A stretch of 64,000 nucleotides of DNA, taken from positions 1 to 64,000 of the forward strand of contig JAKSNP010000002.1 in the NCBI GenBank assembly GCA_024399655.1. The letters run 5' to 3'. Made by a program: the position numbers and the translations under genes. A model generated the notes under the pieces. The model saw only the letters and a list, made by a program, of their open reading frames with translations, ran no database searches and had not been told where the DNA came from. Source of the DNA: Paludibacteraceae bacterium. Lineage in GTDB: Bacteria > Bacteroidota > Bacteroidia > Bacteroidales > Paludibacteraceae. This document shows positions 28,957 through 44,076 of this stretch, piece by piece (the stretch's first letter is position 1; the number at the start of each line of letters is the position of its first letter).

Positions 28957-29003
28957 AACTATAAACAATGAACACTATATATTCACTTAATACCCCAAAC
29001 GTT

Positions 29004-30185
29004 ATGAAACAGAAAACTACTCGATTTTTAGGCGTATTGGCGGCTGCGATTTTCGCGCTCGGCATCGCTGAGGCCAATGCTGCCGATTTCACTTACACTT
29101 ATGAAAACGTCACTCTGAGTTATCAGATAGTGGACGCTACCAACCGCTATGTGGCCGTAGTGCCCGGAAGCAGCATCACCGGCAATTATCTAATCATTCC
29201 CGAACAGGTGGAATACAACGGACTGACTTACACCGTGACGGAATTGCATTACGCCGTGATCAGTACCTCCAACCAGCTTTCGTCGATCATGCTGCCCAAT
29301 ACGCTGCGCCTGATTGAACACGAAGCCATCGTACAAACCAACATTACCGGCATAACCGCCCTTACGATTCCGGAGAATGTGGATACGATAGGATATAACG
29401 GTATTAAGTTGAAAGGACTGAAAACCCTGACCTGGAAAGCCCGTAACTGCAAGTTGAATCCCAATTGGATGTATGTATACGACAGTTATGCGCCCGAAGA
29501 GATAGTGTTCGGCAAAGAAGTGAAAAAAGTGCCCGACTATTTCTGCCGCAACAACGGTAATCTCAGTTCGATTGTCGTGCCCGTTAATGTGGACAGCATA
29601 GGCAACTACGCCTTCTTCAGTTGCACCGATCTGAGCAGCGTGGCTCTGGGTGAATCGGTTAAATCCATCGGCGAGTTCGCTTTCTACAACTGCCAGAAAC
29701 TCAACTATATCCTCTGCGCACCCGCCGTTCCGCCCGTAGTGCCCACTCACGCTTTCCACGACGTGCCTCTGGACGCCACTATCGAAGTGCCCTGCAACAC
29801 GATTGCCGCATACGCCGCAGCCAACGAGTGGAAGAATTTCTGGGCATTCGAGGAAACTATCCTGTATAAGGCTATCTGTCGCGTAATGGACGAGGAACAA
29901 GGCTCTGTGGAAGTGGAACAGGACTGCCGCTGCGCCACTTTTACCGCTATGCCGGCTGAAGGATACCGCTTCAAACAATGGAGCAACGGCTCCAAAACCA
30001 ATCCGCTGACCTTGCAATTGAGCGAAAGCGTGGAACTGGTGGCCGAATTTGAAGAAATGCCCGCCGGACTGGAAGAGATATTCAATCTCAACACGCCAAG
30101 CGACGGCAAATTCATCCGCAACGGTCAACTGCTGATCATCCGCAACGGACTTACCTACAACGCTCAAGGCAACCTGGTGAAATAA
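29004..30185 (+). CDS. BspA-like leucine-rich repeat surface protein
   Basis: A 393-residue exported protein. Signal peptide MKQKTTRFLGVLAAAIFALG, probably cut after AEANA. Residues about 55-250 carry BspA/Treponema-type leucine-rich repeats (LSSIVVPVNVDSIGNYAFF, LSSVALGESVKSIGEFAFYN). A block at about 300-365 resembles a bacterial repeat domain (CRCATFTAMPAEGYRFKQWSNG). The end is a short motif, GQLLIIRNGLTYNAQGNLVK, seen in similar form in three other exported proteins here. ATG 29004 gives the signal peptide directly; the ATG at 28968 would add 12 residues. Likely role: surface binding. A strong terminator follows. Confidence 0.85.
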   Translation: MKQKTTRFLGVLAAAIFALGIAEANAADFTYTYENVTLSYQIVDATNRYVAVVPGSSITGNYLIIPEQVEYNGLTYTVTELHYAVISTSNQLSSIMLPNTLRLIEHEAIVQTNITGITALTIPENVDTIGYNGIKLKGLKTLTWKARNCKLNPNWMYVYDSYAPEEIVFGKEVKKVPDYFCRNNGNLSSIVVPVNVDSIGNYAFFSCTDLSSVALGESVKSIGEFAFYNCQKLNYILCAPAVPPVVPTHAFHDVPLDATIEVPCNTIAAYAAANEWKNFWAFEETILYKAICRVMDEEQGSVEVEQDCRCATFTAMPAEGYRFKQWSNGSKTNPLTLQLSESVELVAEFEEMPAGLEEIFNLNTPSDGKFIRNGQLLIIRNGLTYNAQGNLVK

Positions 30186-30244
30186 CAATTAACGTAGACG
30201 CAAACATAGACGTAAACGAGGACGGCCATACGGCATAAAGTAAC

Positions 30245-30281
30245 GGAAAGGACTACCCTGATGGGCGGTCCTTTCTTTTTT
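30245..30281 (+). terminator. Terminator of the leucine-rich repeat gene
   Basis: GAAAGGAC (30246-30253) pairs with GTCCTTTC (30268-30275), with an inner CCC/GGG stem and a T-run after it. Confidence 0.85.
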
Positions 30282-30293
30282 ACTATTATGTAT

Positions 30294-30481
30294 GCCGCGT
30301 TGCGGCGTATTTGACTGATTGTCAAATTAACGTAGACGAGAACTGTGCCGCAAAGCGGCTTGATAGGCGACAGGGTCGCATTATGGTTGGCAAAAGCCAA
30401 ATTATTGTTTCGCAAGCGAAAATTATGGTTGGCAAAAGCCAAAGTATGGGCGCTAAAGCGCATTATGGGCAGCGGATCTGC
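30294..30481. repeat. Mini-hairpin array A, nine hairpins with 7-nt linkers
   Basis: Hairpins (left arm/loop/right arm): GCCGC/gtt/GCGGC 30294; TTTGAC/tgatt/GTCAAA 30310; GCCGC/aaa/GCGGC 30347; GCGAC/agg/GTCGC 30367; TTGGC/aaaa/GCCAA 30387; TTTCG/caag/CGAAA 30408; TTGGC/aaaa/GCCAA 30429; GCGC/taaa/GCGC 30450; GCAGC/gga/TCTGC 30469 (innermost pair lost). From the third hairpin on, the linkers are all 7 nt: TTGATAG, ATTATGG, ATTATTG, ATTATGG, AGTATGG, ATTATGG. Stems differ while pairing and linker are kept. Confidence 0.9.
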
Positions 30482-30738
30482 TACTTGACGAGAGTGAGAA
30501 CGAGAACGGCTATGCAGATAGTTTTGCCTAAGCGGTTCGGGGTTACACACTGGTGTCAGACACCTTTCGTCAGCAGAAACTCCGCTAAGTGGATTAGCCT
30601 TGCTAATCGAAGCGCTATTTATGGCCCCTTTCCGTGAGTTGGTTTTCCCCGTTAATCGGGGACAACCGAGCCATTGTGATATTCCCCGACCCGAGTGAAC
30701 ACAACCTATATTAAACGTGAACGGCCATGCGGCTTAAT

Positions 30739-30834
30739 CAGTGCACAATTGACATTTGTTTGATTTCATCGAAGATTTTGGGGATTAATCATGAAGGGGA
30801 CGACAAAAAAACTGCCGACACAATGCCGGCAGTT
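30739..30834 (+). repeat. 96-bp direct repeat, copy A
   Basis: Matches 43982-44076 with about six substitutions and one indel by direct comparison. Both start CAGTGCACAATTGACA and end in the hairpin CTGCCG-loop-CGGCAG. The copies bracket the adhesin and its regulator. Confidence 0.9.
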
Positions 30835-30838
30835 TTTT
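30805..30838. terminator. Bidirectional terminator of the giant adhesin gene
   Basis: AAAAAACTGCCG (30806-30817) pairs perfectly with CGGCAGTTTTTT (30827-30838). The A- and T-runs make it work in either direction. It lies 19 nt past the adhesin stop codon. Confidence 0.85.
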
Positions 30839-30856
30839 GATCAGACAATTGATTGC

Positions 30857-33800
30857 TTATTGCAATTGTACAGGTGCATTCACTCTGCGTCCGTATATAT
30901 CATACCATTCATCGTTGCGGATGATATATACCTGACCGTCGTATACCACTTTCATGGCCGGAATCTTTTCACCAAACAGGTCGTTCAGACCGGATCCGTT
31001 AACCAACGTGATATGATAGGTTACATCTCCGCACTCGGTGGTTACGGTGTAGGTGTATTCACCGCATTCGGTGCCGACCGGCAATACTTCCACGCCGTCG
31101 ATAACCAAGGGCAGATCGGCTACATCGTAAGTCATGTAGATATCCGGCTCAGAAGCGTCAATCACCGTGAGATACAGCACAAGCGTACTATCGCAACCGT
31201 CGACGGAAGAAGTAACCACTTCGTAGCGTCCGCTTGTGGAGATTCCGATGAAGTGGTCGTCCGTATAGGATTCGCCCTCACAGATTGATACAGTATAACT
31301 GCTGCCGAGTTGAGGCAACTCGGTGACATGATAGTTAACCACGCTGTCGCAGCCCAGAGAGGAGGTATAACTGAAGGTGTAGATGCCGCTCCCGGTGATT
31401 TCCACATCATTCAAGAGGAGCGTATCGTTGTAGCAGAGAATCATATCCACGTCAATCGTATCCTGACTGATCACATCCAGATAGAGTGAGACAATACTGT
31501 CGCAACCCCAAACGGATTGCAGGGTGTCGGTATAAATGCCATTGTTGTACAGACTGTAGCCGTGCCATACCACCGGCAGGCTGCTGCCGCATACGGTCAT
31601 GAAGGTATCCACTTCGGCAACCGGATGGATAGTGAGATGCATAACCACCAGACTGTCGCAGCCCGAAACGGAAGTAAGGATACGTTGTTGCTCAGCAGGT
31701 GTGACACCGATCTGAACATCAGTCAGACTGAAGTTTTCGTCCAGATAATTCTCATGTTCGCATATCATAGCGCTGTATGAATAGGTCTTGACGGTATCCA
31801 CATGCAATAGCAAGGTGAACAGACTGTCGCGTACGGATTGATCATCTGCGGGACGGAAGATTTGGTAACTGTTGTCGCCAACCGTATACATGCCGTAGGA
31901 AATGACGAACGGATCGGCCGGTGTGGACAGATAGCCGTAATAATTGTCGCCGTAGCAGAGAGTGGCTTCGGCAGCAGCCAAGTCGGCGCCGTCCAGAACG
32001 ACATGAGCGATACTCAACGTGTGGTTAGCCTCGAGCGTGTTGGAAGCTTCCTGATAGAAGGCAATCTTCACATTGGGATATCCTGCGTATTCAGACATCA
32101 CAATCGAATAGTGGTATATGGAATCGTAACGCAGACTGTCGTAAACATAGTCACCGGCATTGACGGTGTTGTTGTTCCATTCTTTCAGCACGTTCCAAGT
32201 GGAGCCATTGTCAGAAGAAGCCAGTACCATGAATCGGTCGTCGGCTCCGTAATATTGGAACGCGCCGTATTTGAGCAAATCGAATTGGAGTACCAGCGCT
32301 TCGCCGCTATTGGGCGTGAGATCCAACGAAGGAGTGGCTATCCAGAAATTGTTGCCTGTCCACATGCTAGCTCTGAGGTATGACTCAGAGAAGTAATTAT
32401 CGGCATGAGCAACATTCCAACCACCCGATGCTGGTTGATATTGCGAGCCGGGATAGCTGCCGGAGAAGCGGCTCCAATCTTCAGCTGCATAGGTATCGAA
32501 GTCGGGTTGGAAACGGGTGCCGTACAAAGTACGGAACGATACGCTTTCCCAAACCGGATCTTCGGTGTTTTCGCATAACTGTTGGATATAAGCATAGTAC
32601 AACGTGCCGGGCAAGAGGTTGGTGAACACAAGGACGGAGTCGTTGATCAAGGTATCCATACGGATGATATTGGCCTCGTTCAATACCTTGTCTGTTGACA
32701 GGGCAACCCGAGCGTTGCGTATGCCTTTATCCACATAGGTGAACGACAAAGCGGCTTGCGTGAGGGTGATTTGATCCACCGTCATATTATCCACACCCTG
32801 GCAACCTTCGTCGAATATAGACAACGACACATCGTCGATGTATTCGATATTGTTGTATACATCACTTCCGGACAGGAAGCAGATATAACGGTCGGCAGTA
32901 GGCTGGAAGTCAACCACGAAGGTCTCCCAGAACTTCTCGGGATCATCCGATTCCAAAGCATCAGTTGGTACGGGAGTGCTGACGCAAACGCTTACAGGAG
33001 TGAAGGTGGATATGTCGTAAGGATCGGACATCGTACCTACGGTGATGCTATGCAGATAGTTGGAGCCGGTGTAGCCCACCATATTGCCATGATTGTCACG
33101 CTGACCGGGACGCATCTTGAAGCGCAGGCGAACTGAATCCATCGTGTTGACATCCAAAGCAGGCATCACAGCCCAGGTGGTATCTCCTTCGGGTTTGGAA
33201 GCAATAGTATTGAAGAACAATGCCGAGTTGCCAGATGCAGCGTAATCAGCACCATTGATTAGTGATACTCCACAGAATGTACCTACACTATAGTGGTCGC
33301 CAAGTATCCAGCACGAAGGCATGAAACGTGAATATTTAATTGGATAAACATCTCCGTCTTCGAAGTCGTAATTCACCGGAACGGTAACCAGGCAGAGTGT
33401 AGAGAAGCATGCCACGGTCCATTCAGAACCGCAATCTTTCTGAACACGTACATAATAGTCGGTACCCGGAACAAGGTTATTGAAGGAATAACGAGCTTCG
33501 TTAACAGTGTCGGAAAGCACAGGATCAACAAAGAAGCTGTCGGTGGCCAATTCCACGATAAATTGTCCTCTATGTACCGGATTATTGAGCCATGCAATAT
33601 TGGCTGATGTAGTGAAGATATCGCTTACCTCCAGTCCTTTAACTTCAATGCATGCCGCATCATTGTATTCAATATCAACCGAATCAAGGAAGAAATAAGT
33701 GTAGGGATAATAACTTGAACCGCTTTGCACATAGAATCCGATAGAAATATTCTTACCTGAATATTGAGTGATATCCAATTCCACTTTCATGCCGTCGGCA

Positions 33801-36800
33801 AAGTTCTGATAGTTGTAATCTGCACCTTCTGTACTGAGCCAACTGCGGAGAACATTGTAGTTGTGTCCGCCGTCTTCGGATACCAATACATGGAACGAAT
33901 GGGTGTTGGCATCGCCCTGAACAGGTCCACCTTGATCACTGCAGATTTGAGCATTGAAGCTCAGAGTCATACCAAGACCGTCTTCCAGTTCGGGAATCAC
34001 GATGAAGGGAGTAGTAAGGATACTATTGGTATAATAGTCGGCTAATCTGGCTCGTACCGTAGTACCTGACATGATATTGATCATACTGTCAGGTGCGGCA
34101 TAACTCCAATAGGTACCGGGATTGGTAAGTGCTGTATACGAATCAAGCGAAACGACATTATCAACGAGCATATTAGAACTGCTATATACCGACCAACCGG
34201 CAGAAGGAGCCGTACCAATGGTATAGCTGTCGAAATCGTTCTGATAAGGAGCCGTGCAAGCCGTATGGAATGACATCGGTTCTGACCAAGCGGAAGTTTC
34301 GCCATTAGCGCACAAACTGCGTACATAAACCGTATAAATCATATCACTAAGCAGACCTTCCACATGCAACGAATTGGAATCGGAATAGAACAAAGCGTTA
34401 GGATCAATATTGTCCAACATATATCCGGCCAGATTGCAAACTATCTCGTATCGAGCAGCATTTCCTATCCAAGTGATATCGGCCTTGGTGTTGGTGCATG
34501 TAGCATCCAAATGGGTAGGTTCGATACAATCAGGAGCATACACTACATTGACATCATCAATGAATATGTTGTTATTCTGCGAGAAATCGCTGGCAAAGGC
34601 GATGTATTTGCCTTCCACTCCATAAAGGTTAACATAATATTCCTGCCATAAATCATCCATATTTTCGATGTCCCTAGGATAATCAGCGGTAGCAAGAACG
34701 GGCAAAGTGATAGTCTTTATCAAGCGGAAGGTGGAAGGATCGTCAGGATCGTCCATCGTACCGATATTCAACGAACGGGCGTAACTGGAAGTCTGAGAAT
34801 TATTCACCACAAGACCTAAGTTAGTATTGAGTTGACCATAGATCGCTCTCATCTTGAAACGAACCTGCAGGCTATCCAATGGCACTTGCATTTCAGGCAG
34901 AGCCATGTAAACGGGGTTGGAACTATTGGATGACATATACAGAGCACCAACACCTGACAATGCAAAATTGAAAACATTCAGATCGTTCTGCTCCAATTGC
35001 TCATCGCGGATATACCCGCAATAGACCGTACTGCTGGAATGCTGGCTCCAGCAAGCCGGCATGCTATGCGAACCCTCTAATACGCGGCGGTCGGACGGGT
35101 CATCAAAGTTCTCTACATAGGGTATCATACCCAGGCACTTCGTAGAGAAGGATATAGAATTCCAAGCACCCTTATTATCACCACAATCACTACGTACATA
35201 TACATAATAATCGGTGGTATGTTGCAAACCGGTAAGCGAAACGGAATCCTCGCTGACGGTGAAGTTGCGGACGATATCGCCACTATATTCTTCAATCGAA
35301 TCAGGATTGATAGCAGCGGTAGCCAATACAAACTGATAATCACCGGTGTGTGAACTACTGAAAGTGACAGTAGCAGCAGAGGTGGAAATGTCCTTTGCAG
35401 CCAGATAGCGAATGTCACGGCATTCAGGCAACAGGCTGAAAGTGATATCGTCGATACCTGCATATTCCATACTGCCACCGCCGTATTTGAAGGCTATACG
35501 GGCTATGGAAACTACAGAATCAGGAATAGCCGACAACTCTATCTTCTCGATTGTCCAACCTGTGTTTCTGGGTATACGCTGCATAGCGACAAAGCCGGTT
35601 TCGTCGGTAGGATCGGTGATATAACCCACTTCCAAAGTAACATTGGCATTGGTGCTGGATTCTTTATGGGCGAACTCAATCTGCAGAGTATTGGCCGGAA
35701 TCGTCATTTCGGGCAGAACCGCGTATCCATAAGTATTGGCATCCGCATTGAGGAACAGACTCAATTTGCCGGAATGAACATAATCAGCATATTTATTGAC
35801 GAAGATATAAGGAGGTACACCTTCGTTGGCGTTGATGGTTTCCCAGCAAACCAGGTTGGATTCGTCAGATGTTTTGGCATTAGCTACCGTTATGTTGCAG
35901 GTGTATGTTTCGAATCCGTCAGTCCAGGGCAGTTCGCTGATGCGGCCGCAAGACGTACGGAACGTAGTGTTGGCATCGCAGGTCACCGTGCCGGAGCACA
36001 ATTGATAGAGGCGTACAAAGTATGGCGTCGCCATTTTCAGGCCGGTTATCGTATAGGTAAGTCCTGAAGCCACCGTAGCAGTTTGGTATCCTTGAGTGAA
36101 GGCATTGTCCTCAGCCCATTCAATGACGGTCTGCTTGGATGAATCGCCTTGCCAACTGATGGTAACCTTGTCTGCCTCCACACTATCAACTGTCAGATTG
36201 GATGGATCATCGCAACCTGGAATCACTTTCTTCAGTTTGATATTGGCAATATGTATATCGTTCGTTTTGGTTCGAACAATACCTACGAATGCGAAACGGA
36301 TGGTTTGACCGGCAAATCGTGAGAAGTCCAAAGTAAGGTTGGTACCTGTTTCGGATATCTCGGACATAGGATACAGGGTAGCACCTACGGTATCCGACTG
36401 AGTCCATTCCCAAGTATCGGTTCGGCTCCAACTTTGGCCGTCATCCGTAGATACGGCAATCAGCAAACCATGATTGGCACCAGTAGTAGGAGCGGTTCCT
36501 TTGTTAGCAGCCGTATAGGCAGCATCAAACAACAAAACGATGGAATCACCCGGCTGCGCGGAAGTAAGGTTGATGGATGGCGATACCAACCATCGATTGG
36601 CAAATGCCGTCATCATGTTGTAAGAGATATGGTTGGCGGGCAATCCGTTGTTGGTAGTGTTCACTTTCCAACCACCAGCCTGGCTGGTCAATTGGGTTCC
36701 CTTGAATACTGCTATAGGATCACCCTTCATGGTCTGCCAATCGGAAGGAATAGCGGATACGTTGAACGACTGGCAATAAGGCAGACCGTTGGGAGTGACG

Positions 36801-39800
36801 AATTCTTTTACCACCCATTCGGCATCTTCGCATTCAGCCTGTTTGATGCGGAAATAATAAGCAGTATTGCCGAGCAGGTCAGTAATGGTAAGTGTATTGG
36901 CTGTAAGCGTATCATTATAGAGCAAGGTGGAGAAATCGGCTGTTCGTGACAATTGGGCGATTGAAATTTGCGGTTCGCCACCTACCGTCCAATTTGCGTT
37001 CAAATCAAATCCTTCCAAATTGACAGTCAGGTCAGATATACCGCCGCATTGCGAAGTATAATATGTGTCAATACTGATTGAATCCATGAAAATATGGGTG
37101 CTCGGAGGCCCGGTCTTATCGGTACCGGAAGCAAAGCCCAGATAGATGGTCTGTCCTGCATAGGGTGTCAAATCAATCCGGGCAGTAGTGGCCTGACTTT
37201 GCAAATCATTGTAGTCATAATCGCCGATGCCGCTCTGCCATGAAACCAATTTATGGAACGACTTGCCGTCGGTAGATACCAACACCTTGAAATAGTGGTC
37301 GGTAGACGCAGTCAATGAAGTGGAAGTTGCAGAAGAAGGTACAGCAGAGAGCTTGAAAGTCAATCGATAGCCCATACCCTCTTCAATAGAATCGAAATCT
37401 ATAGTGGGTGATACCAATAGAGCATTATAGGCAGGCAACATGATTTGAGAACGAATACCGTTTCCTTCCATACCTGAAATCGAACTGCTTATCGGTTGTA
37501 CATTCCACCCCATAGCCGTAGAATTAACCGTTTTGTTTGCAATATTGACGCTGTCAGTCACGGTAACACCACGGTAACCTTTCCAAATAATTTGAGGACA
37601 ACCGGTAGCCATAGCGTCGAAAGTCTCCAGATAAGGAACACCTACCGAAGTGATGATTTCAACCGGCATGCTCCATTGTGTCATCAAGTTGGCACAACGG
37701 CTGCGGACATATGCATAATATATCGTATTGGATTGCAGATTATCCAAAGTGCATGAATTGGTATTGACCTGAATATTGGCCATCTGTTGTGCGGCCGACA
37801 ACGTGTCAGGTTGCAGGGTATTGGCAAAGGCCAAAAGTACGTCGTAGGCATCTGCACCTGTATTTTCCCAACTAAGAGAGGCGGAAGAATACGATATATC
37901 TGTCACCTGAATATCCAGAGGTAGTTCACAAGTAACCACACGTTCCACTCTAACATCGTCAATCAGGATATAGGAAGTGGAATCTGCACCGGCATTCGAC
38001 ATGAATACGATGTATTTACCGTAATTGCCGTTGTAATCTCCTTGGTAATCGCTCAGACTGACTGTATATTCGTATGCATCGGCCTTGGTGGCTGCATAGT
38101 TGAGCGACAGAGTGCGGACGATTTCAATAGCAGATAAATCGGTAGGATCGTATACGACACCAACGTACAAACGTCGGTTGTTGGCGTTGTCGGTATTGTT
38201 GAAGGTAGCGGCTCGGAATATAACCTGGTAACTGGAAATGGAATCCACATTCAGTTCGGGAGTGATAGCATAAGCTCCGTCTCTATATACGGCAGTAGGC
38301 GTATTGACCGCTTTTTTGCTCAGTTCCAGATAATTTCCATAGGTATTGACATCACCGACCACACGGTCTGCAATCGACTGCTCTTCCTTGCATCCGTCGG
38401 GAGCAAGGAGGAATCCGGTAATCCAGCAATCCATATCTTCTATTTCGTCAAATGTCTCCGTTCCGAATTCTTCAGGAGTGGCTGTGCAAGTGGTACGGAA
38501 AGTCTGTTGTTTGGTCCAACGTCCGTAGCCGCCCTCGCCGCATACCGCACGTACATATATATAATAGGTAGTGGCGGGCATGATTCGTGAATCATCAATA
38601 ATAGGATTGAGCGAAGCGGTCGTGTCGTTATACACCACAACGGCCTGCACGGCCTCCGTGAGCAAGGAATCCGGATTGACGGGTGAGGAAGTGACCAGCA
38701 ACTGATAAGCCTCAGCACCAACAGACGCATACGACAGGGTGATGCCGTTGGAGGTAGGATTACTCAATACCACCTGACCCAAACCTCCGCAAGTGGGAGC
38801 TGTTTGCAATTGTACATCATCAATATGGAACGGCGTGTACATCACTTGCGAACCCGTTACCGTCTGACCCACCAATTTACGGGCGAATGCAATATATCTG
38901 CCCTGGCCGGCATAGTTGGTGAAAGAGATATAGTAGCGTTCGTAATCGGACGTGGGCAAAATACCGGCAACCGGCACGAAAGTGGATGCATCCGACGGAC
39001 GTGTCATTACACCTACGTACAAACTATCTTGATTCGTGTACAAGGAGGTTGTTTTAGCTACATAGAAATTCAGTTCCAACGTATTGACCGCCTGATTGAC
39101 AGCAGGCAGCGACGCGATTGAAGCATAAGCCGAATTGGCATCCTGTGCGCCGGTACCCCAACTCAAGCAGTTAACGCCGCTATGAGCATAGGATGCGCCC
39201 GTAGTATTGGCCACCACATAAGGATAAGCACCGCTCTCTTTCCATACATTCCAGCACGAAGGCAGATTGTTGGGGGTTTCATCTTCGAATGTGTTGGTAT
39301 AAGGCAGTTCGATTGGAGGACATAAAGTGGTAACGGTAGCATAAGCCCATTCATCTTCCTCACAGGTCTGGCGCACGCGTATATAATATGTAGTGGATGC
39401 GTCCAGTCCGCCGAATACGATGCTGTCGTTGGTTCCGCTTATCGTTTGGATAGTATCTGCGTATTGTGGAGATGATGAGATCTGCGCTTCGGTATGCGTA
39501 TTCGAGCCAATCACATCCCAGGTGACGCAAACGGATGCTTCGTCAGCCGCTGTCTGCAGATTGGCGATGCCGCCGCATTGAGGATCGTATTTAGCCACTT
39601 TGATATCACCTACATGTATATAGTTGGTAGCTCCGACTTTGGTAGATCCGCTGTAAAAAGCCACCTTGATATTCTTGCCACGGAACGGGGTAAGGTCGAC
39701 AGTCACTTTCTGTGCTACAGGGGTCAAACTACGCAAACTGTCGGTAGCAGTTTCATCATTCGACCAAATTCGAGCATTGTTGCGAGTCCAAGTTTGACCT

Positions 39801-41818
39801 TCATCTTCGGAAATCAACACCATAAACCTGTCATCAGCATCTTTAAAGTCAGGAGCGGCTGTATTGGCGGCGGCCTTCGAAGCGGCTACATTACATGTCA
39901 GTCTGGCATACTCGCCCTGTTCAAAATCAAGTTGGATAGTAGGTGAAACAATCCAAAGTTTGTTCATCATACTGAGAGCCGCATACAGATTGTAGGCATG
40001 TTTCATACCATAAGATTCGCCTATAGCTTGTATCGTCCATCCGGAGGTGCCAGCAGATCCGAGTTCGACACCACCAAATACATCTTCAGCCGTTTTCCCA
40101 CCATAGCGTGTCCAACTCTGCCAATCGGTGGTGCTGGTAGGATTATAGGCATAAGGCATTCCGGCATAGGTGGCAAACGAATATACCTCCCAATCATTAT
40201 CAGCGCAATCTTGCTTAATTCGTATATAATAAGTGGTGGCTGATGTCAGCGATTGCAGTACCAGACTGTCGATGCCGGAGGCTACCGTGTAGGATACGGC
40301 ATCCGTATAATCAGCGTTCGGGGATACCTCCACCAATACGGAATTGGTTCCGGCTGACTCCCAACTGACCGTTGCTGTATTCACTCCGGGCACTACCGAT
40401 ATATTGTTCACGCCCATGCAGTTGCCGTCGCAATAATCAACACTAAGATTATCAACAATAAAATACTTATTACCTGTTGAAGCATACGAACGGCAAACCA
40501 ATGCCAATTGAATGACATGGCCGATATAGGGAGTCAAATCCAAACGGACTTTACCGGTAACGCCATTGTATGGTGCCAATGCGTGATACGCATCAGCCGC
40601 GTCACTCCAAACAAAAGTGTTGGCAGCAGTCCACGTCTCACCCGCATCCGTTGAAACCAAGATATCCAACTCGGATTGACCAGTGGTAGAAACCTTGGTC
40701 ACAGCGGTCATGCCGTTAGAAAGTGCCATATCAAATCGCAAATCGACAGCCGAATCGGACGAGACGGACGTCAAATCGATCAGAGGAGTCATTAACCAAT
40801 ACGGATCAAACGAATGGGTCGGCGCTCCGTAAATATAAGCATAGTTTTGTAGAACTACCCACCCTATTGTCGGCATAATATCTTCCAAGGAAGCACTATT
40901 GGCATAAGCTGCATCCAACGAGCCTTGACGATAGAACCAATTAGAGGGTCGGTCGTTTGAAAAATCTTCGCTGAACGGAATAGCAGCCAAGGTGGTGAAG
41001 GAAGCCCCCACCCAATCGGTATATCCGCTGACATAGTCGCTGCAAGCTGAACGCGCGTACACATAATATAAAGTGGACGGCTGCAGACCCGTAACCGTAG
41101 CGGTCAGATCGCTGATATTCTCGGCATGCCATACAGCAGAAGTAAGCTGATACGAACTCCAATCCGTGACGGGCGTAGCGGAAACCACCACATCAAACGT
41201 GTTGTCGAATGAAAGGATATTGATTTCGGCAGAATGAGCACCAGGAACGAAAAACATACCCGTTACACCGGTGCATTGAGAAGAAGACACTATTTTTACA
41301 TCATCCAGCACAACACCACGACCCAGATTTTCGTTAGCCTCAAATGCCAGCTGATAGGTGGCACTGGTGGCTACGATAGGCAATGTGTCCACCTGCCAAT
41401 CCGAAATGACCGCATCATACGTATGAAGCAGATGCCAGGTATCGCTGGAGGAAGAGCGATAATAAACCTTCAACGTATCAAAAGCATCTAGACGATTAGC
41501 CTGAGCATGAGCAAAAATCAATTTGGGCTCATAGGCTGTAGCCAAATCAATTTCAGGCGTAATCAACCGAACGACATAATTTTGTGTCGTTCCTAATTCG
41601 TTACGCAGTACGGCACGTGCAGAACCTCCATACGCTCCCGAAGGATAAGTGAGTTCACCGGACTCGGAAGTCCATTGTGCTTGTGCTGCAGACATGGCCT
41701 GTTGCGACCACGTAGAAGGTATTCCACTCTCAAAACCTTCATCAAAGAGAGCGGTCACCTGAGCTTGCCCTAAGATTGTAAGGACGCTCAACAGCAGTAA
41801 AAGAAGCGATCTTTTCAT
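30857..41818 (-). CDS. Giant modular surface adhesin (cleaved-adhesin/Fn3 repeats), 3653 aa
   Basis: Exported protein with signal peptide MKRSLLLLLLSVLTILGQAQ. I count about 12 modules of the cleaved-adhesin (choice-of-anchor J, MAM-like lectin) type, each starting like PYxxxFD/FE...W and containing phrases such as WLVSPSINL, VLVSTDGG and FAFVGxV, alternating with about 11 Fn3 domains that start near a Cys (CGGISDLTV, CIEVKGLEV) and end WSxPxxFxT. Residues about 3230-3540 hold four to five shorter repeats centred on GCDSxVxLxL. The last 40 residues carry a short sorting-like motif (GQVYIIRNDEWYDIYG). It is probably exposed at the cell surface for binding of host or polymer ligands. It is transcribed leftward from 41914-41945 and faces the regulator gene. 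Confidence 0.9.
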   Translation of the reverse strand: MKRSLLLLLLSVLTILGQAQVTALFDEGFESGIPSTWSQQAMSAAQAQWTSESGELTYPSGAYGGSARAVLRNELGTTQNYVVRLITPEIDLATAYEPKLIFAHAQANRLDAFDTLKVYYRSSSSDTWHLLHTYDAVISDWQVDTLPIVATSATYQLAFEANENLGRGVVLDDVKIVSSSQCTGVTGMFFVPGAHSAEINILSFDNTFDVVVSATPVTDWSSYQLTSAVWHAENISDLTATVTGLQPSTLYYVYARSACSDYVSGYTDWVGASFTTLAAIPFSEDFSNDRPSNWFYRQGSLDAAYANSASLEDIMPTIGWVVLQNYAYIYGAPTHSFDPYWLMTPLIDLTSVSSDSAVDLRFDMALSNGMTAVTKVSTTGQSELDILVSTDAGETWTAANTFVWSDAADAYHALAPYNGVTGKVRLDLTPYIGHVIQLALVCRSYASTGNKYFIVDNLSVDYCDGNCMGVNNISVVPGVNTATVSWESAGTNSVLVEVSPNADYTDAVSYTVASGIDSLVLQSLTSATTYYIRIKQDCADNDWEVYSFATYAGMPYAYNPTSTTDWQSWTRYGGKTAEDVFGGVELGSAGTSGWTIQAIGESYGMKHAYNLYAALSMMNKLWIVSPTIQLDFEQGEYARLTCNVAASKAAANTAAPDFKDADDRFMVLISEDEGQTWTRNNARIWSNDETATDSLRSLTPVAQKVTVDLTPFRGKNIKVAFYSGSTKVGATNYIHVGDIKVAKYDPQCGGIANLQTAADEASVCVTWDVIGSNTHTEAQISSSPQYADTIQTISGTNDSIVFGGLDASTTYYIRVRQTCEEDEWAYATVTTLCPPIELPYTNTFEDETPNNLPSCWNVWKESGAYPYVVANTTGASYAHSGVNCLSWGTGAQDANSAYASIASLPAVNQAVNTLELNFYVAKTTSLYTNQDSLYVGVMTRPSDASTFVPVAGILPTSDYERYYISFTNYAGQGRYIAFARKLVGQTVTGSQVMYTPFHIDDVQLQTAPTCGGLGQVVLSNPTSNGITLSYASVGAEAYQLLVTSSPVNPDSLLTEAVQAVVVYNDTTASLNPIIDDSRIMPATTYYIYVRAVCGEGGYGRWTKQQTFRTTCTATPEEFGTETFDEIEDMDCWITGFLLAPDGCKEEQSIADRVVGDVNTYGNYLELSKKAVNTPTAVYRDGAYAITPELNVDSISSYQVIFRAATFNNTDNANNRRLYVGVVYDPTDLSAIEIVRTLSLNYAATKADAYEYTVSLSDYQGDYNGNYGKYIVFMSNAGADSTSYILIDDVRVERVVTCELPLDIQVTDISYSSASLSWENTGADAYDVLLAFANTLQPDTLSAAQQMANIQVNTNSCTLDNLQSNTIYYAYVRSRCANLMTQWSMPVEIITSVGVPYLETFDAMATGCPQIIWKGYRGVTVTDSVNIANKTVNSTAMGWNVQPISSSISGMEGNGIRSQIMLPAYNALLVSPTIDFDSIEEGMGYRLTFKLSAVPSSATSTSLTASTDHYFKVLVSTDGKSFHKLVSWQSGIGDYDYNDLQSQATTARIDLTPYAGQTIYLGFASGTDKTGPPSTHIFMDSISIDTYYTSQCGGISDLTVNLEGFDLNANWTVGGEPQISIAQLSRTADFSTLLYNDTLTANTLTITDLLGNTAYYFRIKQAECEDAEWVVKEFVTPNGLPYCQSFNVSAIPSDWQTMKGDPIAVFKGTQLTSQAGGWKVNTTNNGLPANHISYNMMTAFANRWLVSPSINLTSAQPGDSIVLLFDAAYTAANKGTAPTTGANHGLLIAVSTDDGQSWSRTDTWEWTQSDTVGATLYPMSEISETGTNLTLDFSRFAGQTIRFAFVGIVRTKTNDIHIANIKLKKVIPGCDDPSNLTVDSVEADKVTISWQGDSSKQTVIEWAEDNAFTQGYQTATVASGLTYTITGLKMATPYFVRLYQLCSGTVTCDANTTFRTSCGRISELPWTDGFETYTCNITVANAKTSDESNLVCWETINANEGVPPYIFVNKYADYVHSGKLSLFLNADANTYGYAVLPEMTIPANTLQIEFAHKESSTNANVTLEVGYITDPTDETGFVAMQRIPRNTGWTIEKIELSAIPDSVVSIARIAFKYGGGSMEYAGIDDITFSLLPECRDIRYLAAKDISTSAATVTFSSSHTGDYQFVLATAAINPDSIEEYSGDIVRNFTVSEDSVSLTGLQHTTDYYVYVRSDCGDNKGAWNSISFSTKCLGMIPYVENFDDPSDRRVLEGSHSMPACWSQHSSSTVYCGYIRDEQLEQNDLNVFNFALSGVGALYMSSNSSNPVYMALPEMQVPLDSLQVRFKMRAIYGQLNTNLGLVVNNSQTSSYARSLNIGTMDDPDDPSTFRLIKTITLPVLATADYPRDIENMDDLWQEYYVNLYGVEGKYIAFASDFSQNNNIFIDDVNVVYAPDCIEPTHLDATCTNTKADITWIGNAARYEIVCNLAGYMLDNIDPNALFYSDSNSLHVEGLLSDMIYTVYVRSLCANGETSAWSEPMSFHTACTAPYQNDFDSYTIGTAPSAGWSVYSSSNMLVDNVVSLDSYTALTNPGTYWSYAAPDSMINIMSGTTVRARLADYYTNSILTTPFIVIPELEDGLGMTLSFNAQICSDQGGPVQGDANTHSFHVLVSEDGGHNYNVLRSWLSTEGADYNYQNFADGMKVELDITQYSGKNISIGFYVQSGSSYYPYTYFFLDSVDIEYNDAACIEVKGLEVSDIFTTSANIAWLNNPVHRGQFIVELATDSFFVDPVLSDTVNEARYSFNNLVPGTDYYVRVQKDCGSEWTVACFSTLCLVTVPVNYDFEDGDVYPIKYSRFMPSCWILGDHYSVGTFCGVSLINGADYAASGNSALFFNTIASKPEGDTTWAVMPALDVNTMDSVRLRFKMRPGQRDNHGNMVGYTGSNYLHSITVGTMSDPYDISTFTPVSVCVSTPVPTDALESDDPEKFWETFVVDFQPTADRYICFLSGSDVYNNIEYIDDVSLSIFDEGCQGVDNMTVDQITLTQAALSFTYVDKGIRNARVALSTDKVLNEANIIRMDTLINDSVLVFTNLLPGTLYYAYIQQLCENTEDPVWESVSFRTLYGTRFQPDFDTYAAEDWSRFSGSYPGSQYQPASGGWNVAHADNYFSESYLRASMWTGNNFWIATPSLDLTPNSGEALVLQFDLLKYGAFQYYGADDRFMVLASSDNGSTWNVLKEWNNNTVNAGDYVYDSLRYDSIYHYSIVMSEYAGYPNVKIAFYQEASNTLEANHTLSIAHVVLDGADLAAAEATLCYGDNYYGYLSTPADPFVISYGMYTVGDNSYQIFRPADDQSVRDSLFTLLLHVDTVKTYSYSAMICEHENYLDENFSLTDVQIGVTPAEQQRILTSVSGCDSLVVMHLTIHPVAEVDTFMTVCGSSLPVVWHGYSLYNNGIYTDTLQSVWGCDSIVSLYLDVISQDTIDVDMILCYNDTLLLNDVEITGSGIYTFSYTSSLGCDSVVNYHVTELPQLGSSYTVSICEGESYTDDHFIGISTSGRYEVVTSSVDGCDSTLVLYLTVIDASEPDIYMTYDVADLPLVIDGVEVLPVGTECGEYTYTVTTECGDVTYHITLVNGSGLNDLFGEKIPAMKVVYDGQVYIIRNDEWYDIYGRRVNAPVQLQ

Positions 41819-43694: not shown

Positions 43695-43727
43695 GCGACG
43701 GTGTCGCATTATGGGCAGCGGAGCTGC
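43695..43727. repeat. Mini-hairpin array B, start
   Basis: GCGAC/ggt/GTCGC (43695-43707), linker ATTATGG (43708-43714), GCAGC/gga/GCTGC (43715-43727). The 7 nt before the first arm (AAGATGG) overlap the regulator stop codon. The second hairpin pairs perfectly, unlike its counterpart at 30469. Confidence 0.85.
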
Positions 43728-43981
43728 TATTTAACGTGAACGAGAACGGCTATGCAGCGGAGGAGATAGAAGAATATAGAGAATATAAAACGAATACAAA
43801 GAAAAAAACAATAAAAACCGCAGGTAAATGGTCCTATGGACCGCGTAGAAGTATAATTTATTTTCTTGCTCAAGCAAGCTTGGAAAGAAAATCTCTTATC
43901 CTCCTACTTGATCCGAAAGGAACTTTCGTCTCTTACCTGCCAAAAAACAGGAAAAAGGCTCTCACAAACTTTATTAATGCA

Positions 43982-44076
43982 CAGTGCACAATTGACAAAT
44001 GCTTGATTTCATCGGGGATTTTGGGGATTAATCATGAAGGGGATGACAAAAAACTGCCGACACAATGCCGGCAGTT
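43982..44076 (+). repeat. 96-bp direct repeat, copy B
   Basis: Second copy of the element at 30739-30834, same orientation. Confidence 0.9.
44048..44076. terminator. Terminator-like hairpin without full T-run (family copy B)
   Basis: CTGCCG (44054-44059) pairs with CGGCAG (44069-44074), flanked by A on the left but only TT on the right. It could still stop leftward transcription from the toxin-antitoxin-like operon. Confidence 0.55.

Follow-up and report, generated by a model that had tools for sequence, protein, structure and literature searches.

Arrays of short hairpins with varying stems on a constant 7-nt linker in a Paludibacteraceae genome and in other species

Introduction

REPs, as the available descriptions present them, are short intergenic palindromes, often found downstream of genes, that occur in groups and are plausibly transcribed; they form families by sequence, carry an unpaired GTAG/CGTC tag and usually exceed 100 copies per genome (PMC3733652, PMC2817692). 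Heptanucleotide direct repeats, such as TAACTGA, are described from Beggiatoaceae, cyanobacteria and some Bacteroidetes (PMC4679880). Sponge mitochondrial hairpin elements are reported as tandem elements, thought to be mobile and present also in genes, whose stems are conserved while their loops vary (PMC2800124), and the Allomyces double-hairpin elements are mentioned as further mitochondrial repetitive hairpin-forming elements (PMC7218506). According to one account, template switching can create perfect stems in a single event and restore pairing, with priming at the loop, although its role as a source of short perfect stems is treated there as not yet settled (PMC8794818); PMC7202029 is a further source on the template-switch correction of quasi-palindromes. 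Finally, d(GCGAAGC) is described as an extraordinarily stable DNA mini-hairpin (PMC4686876).

The DNA analysed here, referred to as the window, is the whole stretch of 64,000 nt at positions 1 to 64,000 of contig JAKSNP010000002.1, from a Paludibacteraceae assembly of 1.41 Mb that is 75% complete (the source genome, G000). Most of its named relatives by PepO are MAGs assigned to the Paludibacteraceae or the Bacteroidales, and many of these come from ruminants, from which the host is likely a gut-dwelling member of the Paludibacteraceae.

Results

The hairpin chain in the window

Nine consecutive hairpins lie at positions 30294-30481 of the window, as the original prediction described, and from the third onwards they form a regular chain. 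The elements and the neighbouring genes are as follows.

28968..30185, plus strand, neighbour gene, BspA-type leucine-rich repeat protein of 405 aa (Pfam LRR_5)
30294..30306, H1, GCCGC stem with a 3-nt loop, a perfect 5-bp palindrome
30309..30327, H2, ATTTGAC stem (7 bp) with a 5-nt loop
30347..30359, H3, GCCGC stem, opening the regular chain
30360..30366, linker H3-H4, TTGATAG, the most divergent linker
30367..30379, H4, GCGAC stem
30380..30386, linker H4-H5, ATTATGG
30387..30400, H5, TTGGC stem
30401..30407, linker H5-H6, ATTATTG
30408..30421, H6, TTTCGC stem
30422..30428, linker H6-H7, ATTATGG
30429..30442, H7, TTGGC stem, the same as H5
30443..30449, linker H7-H8, AGTATGG
30450..30461, H8, GCGC stem
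30462..30468, linker H8-H9, ATTATGG
30469..30481, H9, GCAG stem with one broken pair (GCAGCGGATCTGC); the intact form GCAGCGGAGCTGC stands at 43715-43727
30857..41818, minus strand, convergent neighbour gene encoding a protein of 3,653 aa that has fn3 and MAM domains (Pfam)

Start-to-start distances from H3 to H9 are 20, 20, 21, 21, 21 and 19 nt, in agreement with the predicted period of 19-21 nt. The constant 7-nt spacing that had been claimed holds for all six gaps from H3 to H9; it does not extend to H1-H2 (2 nt) or H2-H3 (19 nt), both of which fall outside the rule. Three of the six linkers are exactly ATTATGG, as its description as the usual linker implied. The stems had been called nearly all self-complementary, which is borne out by H9 being the sole hairpin of this array with a broken pair. 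They had also been called unrelated: their sequence does vary, but H5 and H7 are identical and the GCCGC stem is common to H1 and H3.

Chance was assessed with chains of perfect hairpins with arms of at least 5 nt, loops of 2-6 nt and gaps of exactly 7 nt. The longest such chain in the intergenic region 30186-30856 has six members, whereas the longest in 5,000 first-order Markov shuffles of that region has two, so the shuffling check proposed with the prediction upholds it. When gaps were relaxed to 5-9 nt, the shuffles reached a maximum of three, in 9 of 5,000. In 1.43 Mb comprising the window and the loci of relatives, the same 5-9-nt gaps gave 14 other chains (13 of three hairpins and one of four), and a Markov control of the same size gave one chain of three. 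Real DNA thus exceeds Markov controls generally, and no other chain in the 1.43 Mb comes near six.

The array lies in the intergenic region 30186-30856 between the two convergent neighbour genes. A 96-nt stretch at 30739-30834 recurs at 43982-44076 with 93% identity, following both the main array and a two-hairpin copy listed below; it ends in a GC-rich hairpin after an A run and looks terminator-like by eye. A scan for promoters and terminators returned two promoter-like sites (shuffle mean 1.5) and three terminator-like sites, all three of them hairpins of the array. An Rfam search of the window and of loci L214 and L171 gave no family at gathering score except one tRNA.

Other repeats were seen nearby. 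A second dispersed repeat adjoins the array at 30540-30690, with further copies in the source genome at C13:94593-94692, C3:48317, C7:205717 and C3:49136; its hairpins differ by paired changes (GGATTAGCCTTGCTAATC in the window, GGATTGGCTCTGCCAATC in C13), its C13 copy lies inside a 538-aa ORF that we take to be ComEC-like, and pieces of it occur in other genomes of the genus. Degenerate AACGWG words ending in GGCTATGCAG or similar stand in the window at 30499-30515, 30714-30730 and 43730-43757, and at C10:117991 and C7:205797, close to several of the places named here; they resemble the GTGAAC terminal words of genome G069. A further dispersed intergenic repeat of the source genome consists of words such as CGTTTAGCTCTC and CGTTTAGGTCTC, common to 7-9 intergenic regions.

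Recurrence in the source genome

The reading of the source genome covered 815 kb. Its intergenic regions were scanned for chains without any linker sequence being given, the gaps set at exactly 7 nt and the arms at 4 nt or more; this linker-blind scan found four chains of three or more hairpins against a shuffle mean of 0.7. Only two chains held five or more hairpins, namely the window array and C13:89322-89415. They have a common linker, CNATNAT on one strand, and the stems of the C13 array are mostly other, with only GCCGC (inside TGCCGC) also in the window array. Five places of the source genome carry the common linker, the other three being listed here.

43695..43727 of the window, two-hairpin copy, GCGACGGTGTCGC-ATTATGG-GCAGCGGAGCTGC
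C11:1851-1924, array with the same linker
C13:93967, decayed array with the same linker, added by a model built on the source-genome arrays only (R1)

The five places together have 16 linkers with a recognisable hairpin on either side; in five of the seven columns, 14-16 of the 16 are identical. The C11 array and the two-hairpin copy have GCGAC and GCAGC stems like those of H4 and H9, and GCGAC, GCAGC and GCCGC recur in several arrays of this genome. The 7-mer flank search used an ORF mask of 150 aa; a mask of 100 aa missed the window array, which spurious ORFs span.

An exact search for ATTATGG-N10..17-ATTATGG matched 30 of 61 genomes, the source genome giving 0 against 1 in its reversed control. 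Most of the matches listed proved to be either tandem repeats, as in G052, G010 and G040, or single places; in G057 a GCCG/CGGC palindrome lies between the linkers by eye.

Variable-stem arrays in other species

Model R1, applied to 178 genomes of the genus, matched 10 at an E value of 0.3 or better. Its best place outside the source genome was G069:C20:67262 (E 0.009), with four perfect hairpins on GATARTG. A second model built on the arrays of both the source genome and G069 (R2) matched seven of the 178 genomes at the same threshold; the matches in the source genome, G069 and G111 are arrays and those in the other four are not. On 393 Bacteroidales genomes, which include the source genome and some of the genus, R2 reached an E value of 0.05 or better only in the source genome. 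These counts are lower bounds, because shorter-stem strings on GAAAATG in G101 and G118, seen by eye, were missed by both models and because searches over 40 genomes used stricter filters. Weak R1/R2 matches that were read and found not to be arrays came from G027, G019, G044 (two places), G048, G022, G017, G018 and G012; from G186, G094, G184, G074, G177, G133 and G140; and from G161, G019 again, G197 and G132, the set read leaving out G053 and G039.

A linker-free scan of G069 found five arrays in 274 kb, the longest with eight hairpins on CACTATC, against none in five replicate shuffles. The same scan of 67 kb of G111 found one array on CACTTTC and one AT-rich chain of three. In 394 kb of G193, the closest species by PepO, there was only one unrelated chain of three and a one-hairpin tandem (L318 515-611) in which TACGGGAGCCGTA stands four times, followed by TACGGTAGCCGTA, with 8-nt gaps. 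The array-bearing species are, as PepO identities to the source genome indicate (G193 84%, G111 75%, G069 71%), not its closest kin. Aligning orthologous loci, as had been suggested, did not succeed: no recognisable orthologue of the array locus appeared among 74 PepO loci, many of them short.

The arrays are a repeat class recurring across the source genome and other species, which removes the uniqueness that had been named as a possible refutation. The central claim was of stems that keep their pairing but not their sequence, joined by a linker that is kept; this design is found again at several loci and in further species. What has to be narrowed is the constancy of the linker, which differs between species, the variable-stem arrays of G069 and G111 having linkers other than ATTATGG. 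The stems are also less unrelated than had been claimed: GCAGCTCCGCTGC is present in arrays of the source genome and of G111, and GCGACTCTGTCGC in the C11 array and in G120. Judged by these sequences, the stem repertoire is partly common to arrays and even to species, and the linker changes from species to species.

Arrays of 7-nt mini-hairpins

On the strand of the neighbouring gene, and by eye, the G069 arrays begin at or just after the stop codon with hairpins of 13-15 nt on GATARTG. Their second half consists of the 7-nt words GCGAAGC or GTGAAAC on linkers such as CACTATC and CAATATC, which are complementary to those of the first half, and they end in a word such as GTGAGCGTAGCGAAC, followed by the next start codon. 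The mini-hairpin d(GCGAAGC) is thus one of the two mini-hairpin words of these related arrays. Words of the GCGAAGC/GTGAAAC type are not tandem in the DNA of the source genome.

The pattern GYGAARC-N7-GYGAARC was searched in 358 genomes of the family and matched 127, many at chance level. Matches against the reversed control were 33 to 0 in G069, 14 to 1 in G735, 10 to 1 in G651, 9 to 1 in G005, 6 to 0 in G183 and 5 to 0 in both G120 and G126, among others; the places read in sequence exclude G735 and G651. The linkers differ by species (ATCAAAC and AAATAAC in G005, ATACAAC in G120, TTATAAC in G183) and vary also between places within G101, G111, G120 and G183. Around mini-hairpin places in other species, 333 kb scanned without a linker returned three chains, each with three hairpins and none a variable-stem array.

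Two side observations concern individual places. The arrays at G120 L296 9661-9710 and G183 L299 6080-6161 (minus strand) have a terminal GTGAAC that, by eye, is possibly the GTG start of the next gene. At G005 L293 9553-9988 there is a tandem of about 108 nt made of GTGGCAAAGCCAC, GCTTCGC and GTGAAACATCAAACGCGAAGC words.

Mini arrays also occur within genes. The ClpB gene of G101 holds four words (three GCGAAGC and one GCGGAGC) at a site of extra length: among the 120 homologues listed (7,998 scored), 96 are 10 residues shorter there than the G101 protein, 21 share its long form, two show a second long form and the remaining one is different. A near-identical mini array lies in frame at L306 9965-9985 (G103), L303 9533-9553 (G101) and L307 9837-9857 (G111), in a gene that reads as a putative TonB-dependent receptor. 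Being nearly identical in three species, this array is probably old.

These in-gene arrays bear on the possibility that the arrays are a mobile palindromic family, in which a structure-reading enzyme, a single-strand transposase or similar, would insert units of hairpin plus linker. The dispersal of copies at unlinked sites, the stems common to arrays and species, the extra length of G101 ClpB at its mini array and the similar words in which the G069 arrays end are all consistent with it. No flanks common to all arrays of the source genome were seen, however, and the Y1_Tnp domain (PF01797), the one enzyme family searched for and present in G111, G193 and G140, was not found in the source genome (75% complete) or in G069 (92% complete). 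We regard this explanation as improbable.

Pairing, loops and decay of the stems

In the portion of G069 DNA that was read, segments of 10-18 nt between GATRNTG linkers numbered 17 in arrays and five elsewhere. Sixteen of the 17 are perfect palindromes of 5-6 bp, the seventeenth being the terminal word, against none of the five outside arrays. In words of the form G-x-GAA-y-C, x and y are Watson-Crick partners in 32 of 33 G069 words that have a neighbour 14 nt away and in 142 of 554 lone words; in eight other species the figures are 50 of 52 and 170 of 591, counts in which the words at G111:C3:14837 enter twice (L257 and L307 overlap) and for which most places in the other species had come from a pattern that fixes Y and R beforehand. 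Two founder words, rather than many changes, could lie behind this pairing of the mini-hairpins. All three non-Watson-Crick minis among 85 are T.G.

In the source genome, 102 of 108 pairs are Watson-Crick across 21 hairpins, a set of our own choosing that omits H1 and H2, then the short GCTGCACAGC and the strongly decayed GCATGCTCCGTTGC of C13, as well as the compound GCAGC hairpin of C11. The six non-Watson-Crick pairs are uncompensated, with no G.U on one strand and one on the other. Loops in the arrays of the source genome, G069 and G111 are of 2-4 nt and 91-100% purine on one strand in all three, and of the 34 hairpins listed 32 are closed by a C-G pair.

In the two-hairpin model, all ten stem positions vary on both sides and pairing stays at 94-100%. 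No models were built on alignments A1 and A3, in which MAFFT had shifted hairpins; A4 is A3 without three of its eight rows, for the same fault, and A2 omits the 15-nt C13 hairpin. A2 and A4 consist of rows that overlap in their hairpins and had been picked as hairpins, so that their pairing counts are not independent tests; the linker-blind scan and the linker-bounded and word counts are less biased.

These results bear on a further account, in which a single ancestral unit was tandemly duplicated in the ordinary way and its copies then drifted, any remaining pairing being due to chance. Identical units do exist, as in H5 and H7 and in the C13 array of G069, a two-unit tandem in which GTGGC and GTAGCC alternate. 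Drift would nonetheless break pairs before changing both arms, and here both sides change at every modelled stem position with pairing kept and the linker unchanged; we consider this account very unlikely.

Strand, gene context and RNA folding

The six arrays of G069 and G111 lie between co-directional genes and have the purine-loop strand as the sense strand in all six cases, two of the G069 assignments resting on the discarding of an overlapping opposite ORF. Mini arrays are strand-biased as well: 14 of 16 intergenic rows have the same sense as the gene downstream, and 9 of 10 places within ORFs have that of the ORF itself; this count omits a row in a 289-aa ORF taken as spurious, counts one double-listed place once, and includes at least three in-ORF places that are orthologous (G101, G103, G111). 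Such a bias speaks for RNA, and a plain DNA mechanism does not predict it.

The arrays could accordingly act as RNA elements, cotranscribed strings of hairpins that would hold the conserved 7-nt linker open to a protein or a small RNA, or would protect or separate the messages of neighbouring genes. In favour of this, the window array, when folded as its CCAUAAU strand, gives a clean chain with the six 7-nt linkers unpaired (z -3.72, none of 200 shuffles as low), and the six G069 and G111 arrays fold at z values of -1.35 to -6.12 on the purine-loop strand, with -1.16 to -4.24 on the other (60 shuffles each). The T.G pair in all three exceptional minis is one that a folded RNA would also allow. 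Orientation in the source genome argues the other way, because at its two co-directional places, C13:89322 and C13:93967, the sense strand is the opposite one and the other three places read as convergent (the neighbour assignment at 43695 resting on the discarding of spurious ORFs). On its plus strand the window array folds unremarkably (z -1.57, with 16 of 200 shuffles folding at least as well), and the C13 array shows no clean chain (z -2.22 and -1.24). The decayed pairs of the source genome have no excess of G.U, mini arrays also lie within coding genes, and the two TAnnTTTG words in 30186-30856 are both without an upstream TTG. The complementary half-array linkers of G069, moreover, mean that single-strandedness is not required. 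On balance, an RNA role is possible but rather unlikely.

Discussion

Our preferred reading, held tentatively and at somewhat less than even confidence, is that the window array is a copy of a dispersed repeat class, likely of the Paludibacteraceae, in which slippage over the linker and the keeping of palindromes by template switching are the likely processes. The repeated linker would provide homology over which units are gained or lost, and the nascent strand would snap back on a small stable loop and copy one arm onto the other. Such fold-back copying would make a new or altered stem perfect regardless of its sequence, the linker would be copied by descent only, and the stems, being afterwards under little selection, would decay.

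A DNA-level generator of this kind would explain the perfect yet varied stems, the constancy of the linker, the decay without G.U, the occurrence within genes and the fact that the arrays of the source genome and those of G069 do not keep to one orientation. Precedents for it are template switching as a maker of perfect stems (PMC8794818) and the stability of the d(GCGAAGC) mini-hairpin (PMC4686876). The absence of G.U compensation in decayed stems speaks for it, and the GTGGC/GTAGCC alternation in G069 is the outcome expected of slippage. It leaves unexplained the strand bias of the mini arrays and the stems common to arrays and species, which suggest the copying of a repertoire, and the asymmetry of 5' bases predicted by intrastrand switching is not clear in the 20 listed stems (G 38, C 37, T 21, A 11). 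Also against it, G193, although nearest by PepO, has in 394 kb only the same-stem tandem and the unrelated chain of three. A broader and more speculative view, which we consider doubtful, is that palindromy, more than sequence, would be the inherited trait, with hairpins written by fold-back between lineage-specific heptamer tags and spreading between and into genes.

Compensatory change is usually taken as proof of functional RNA. A repeat class whose stems pair perfectly and in which no functional RNA is evident would lend itself to testing template switching as a source of perfect stems. Since these short arrays recur within a genome and vary between species, a comparison of strains could show whether both arms of a stem change at once. 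The related arrays also add in-frame sequence to conserved genes such as ClpB.

A literature search, with most subscription journals outside its coverage, found no bacterial repeat class of this design, in keeping with the original prediction, which knew of no named class of this kind. The likeness to REPs and BIMEs is that both are short palindromes lying in groups between genes. They differ in that REP palindromes are conserved, whereas the stems here vary inside one array, though some recur, and the constant part is a 7-nt linker that changes from species to species. REPs usually exceed 100 copies, in contrast to five places in the source genome and five arrays in G069. The GTAG/CGTC foot tag is absent, the unpaired constants being CNATAAT in the source genome, CACTATC in G069 and CACTTTC in G111, and GTAG in G069 occurs as part of stems. 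The Y1 (RAYT) transposase that accompanies REPs and BIMEs was, as noted, not found in the 75% complete source genome or the 92% complete G069. Relative to the sponge mitochondrial elements the pattern is the opposite, with variable stems and loops that retain their character. Further relatives are known from cyanobacteria, namely their short tandem repeats and their small dispersed repeats. The heptanucleotide direct repeats, as described, share with the present arrays a 7-nt word, a mainly intergenic location and a patchy distribution (PMC4679880); the heptamers here are not contiguous, since between one and the next there is a palindrome of 12-15 nt or a mini-hairpin of 7 nt. Template-switch correction resembles the present case in keeping pairing whatever the sequence, but that literature, in the parts available to us, deals with single stems and RNA genes, whereas the hairpins described here stand in arrays on a constant heptamer.
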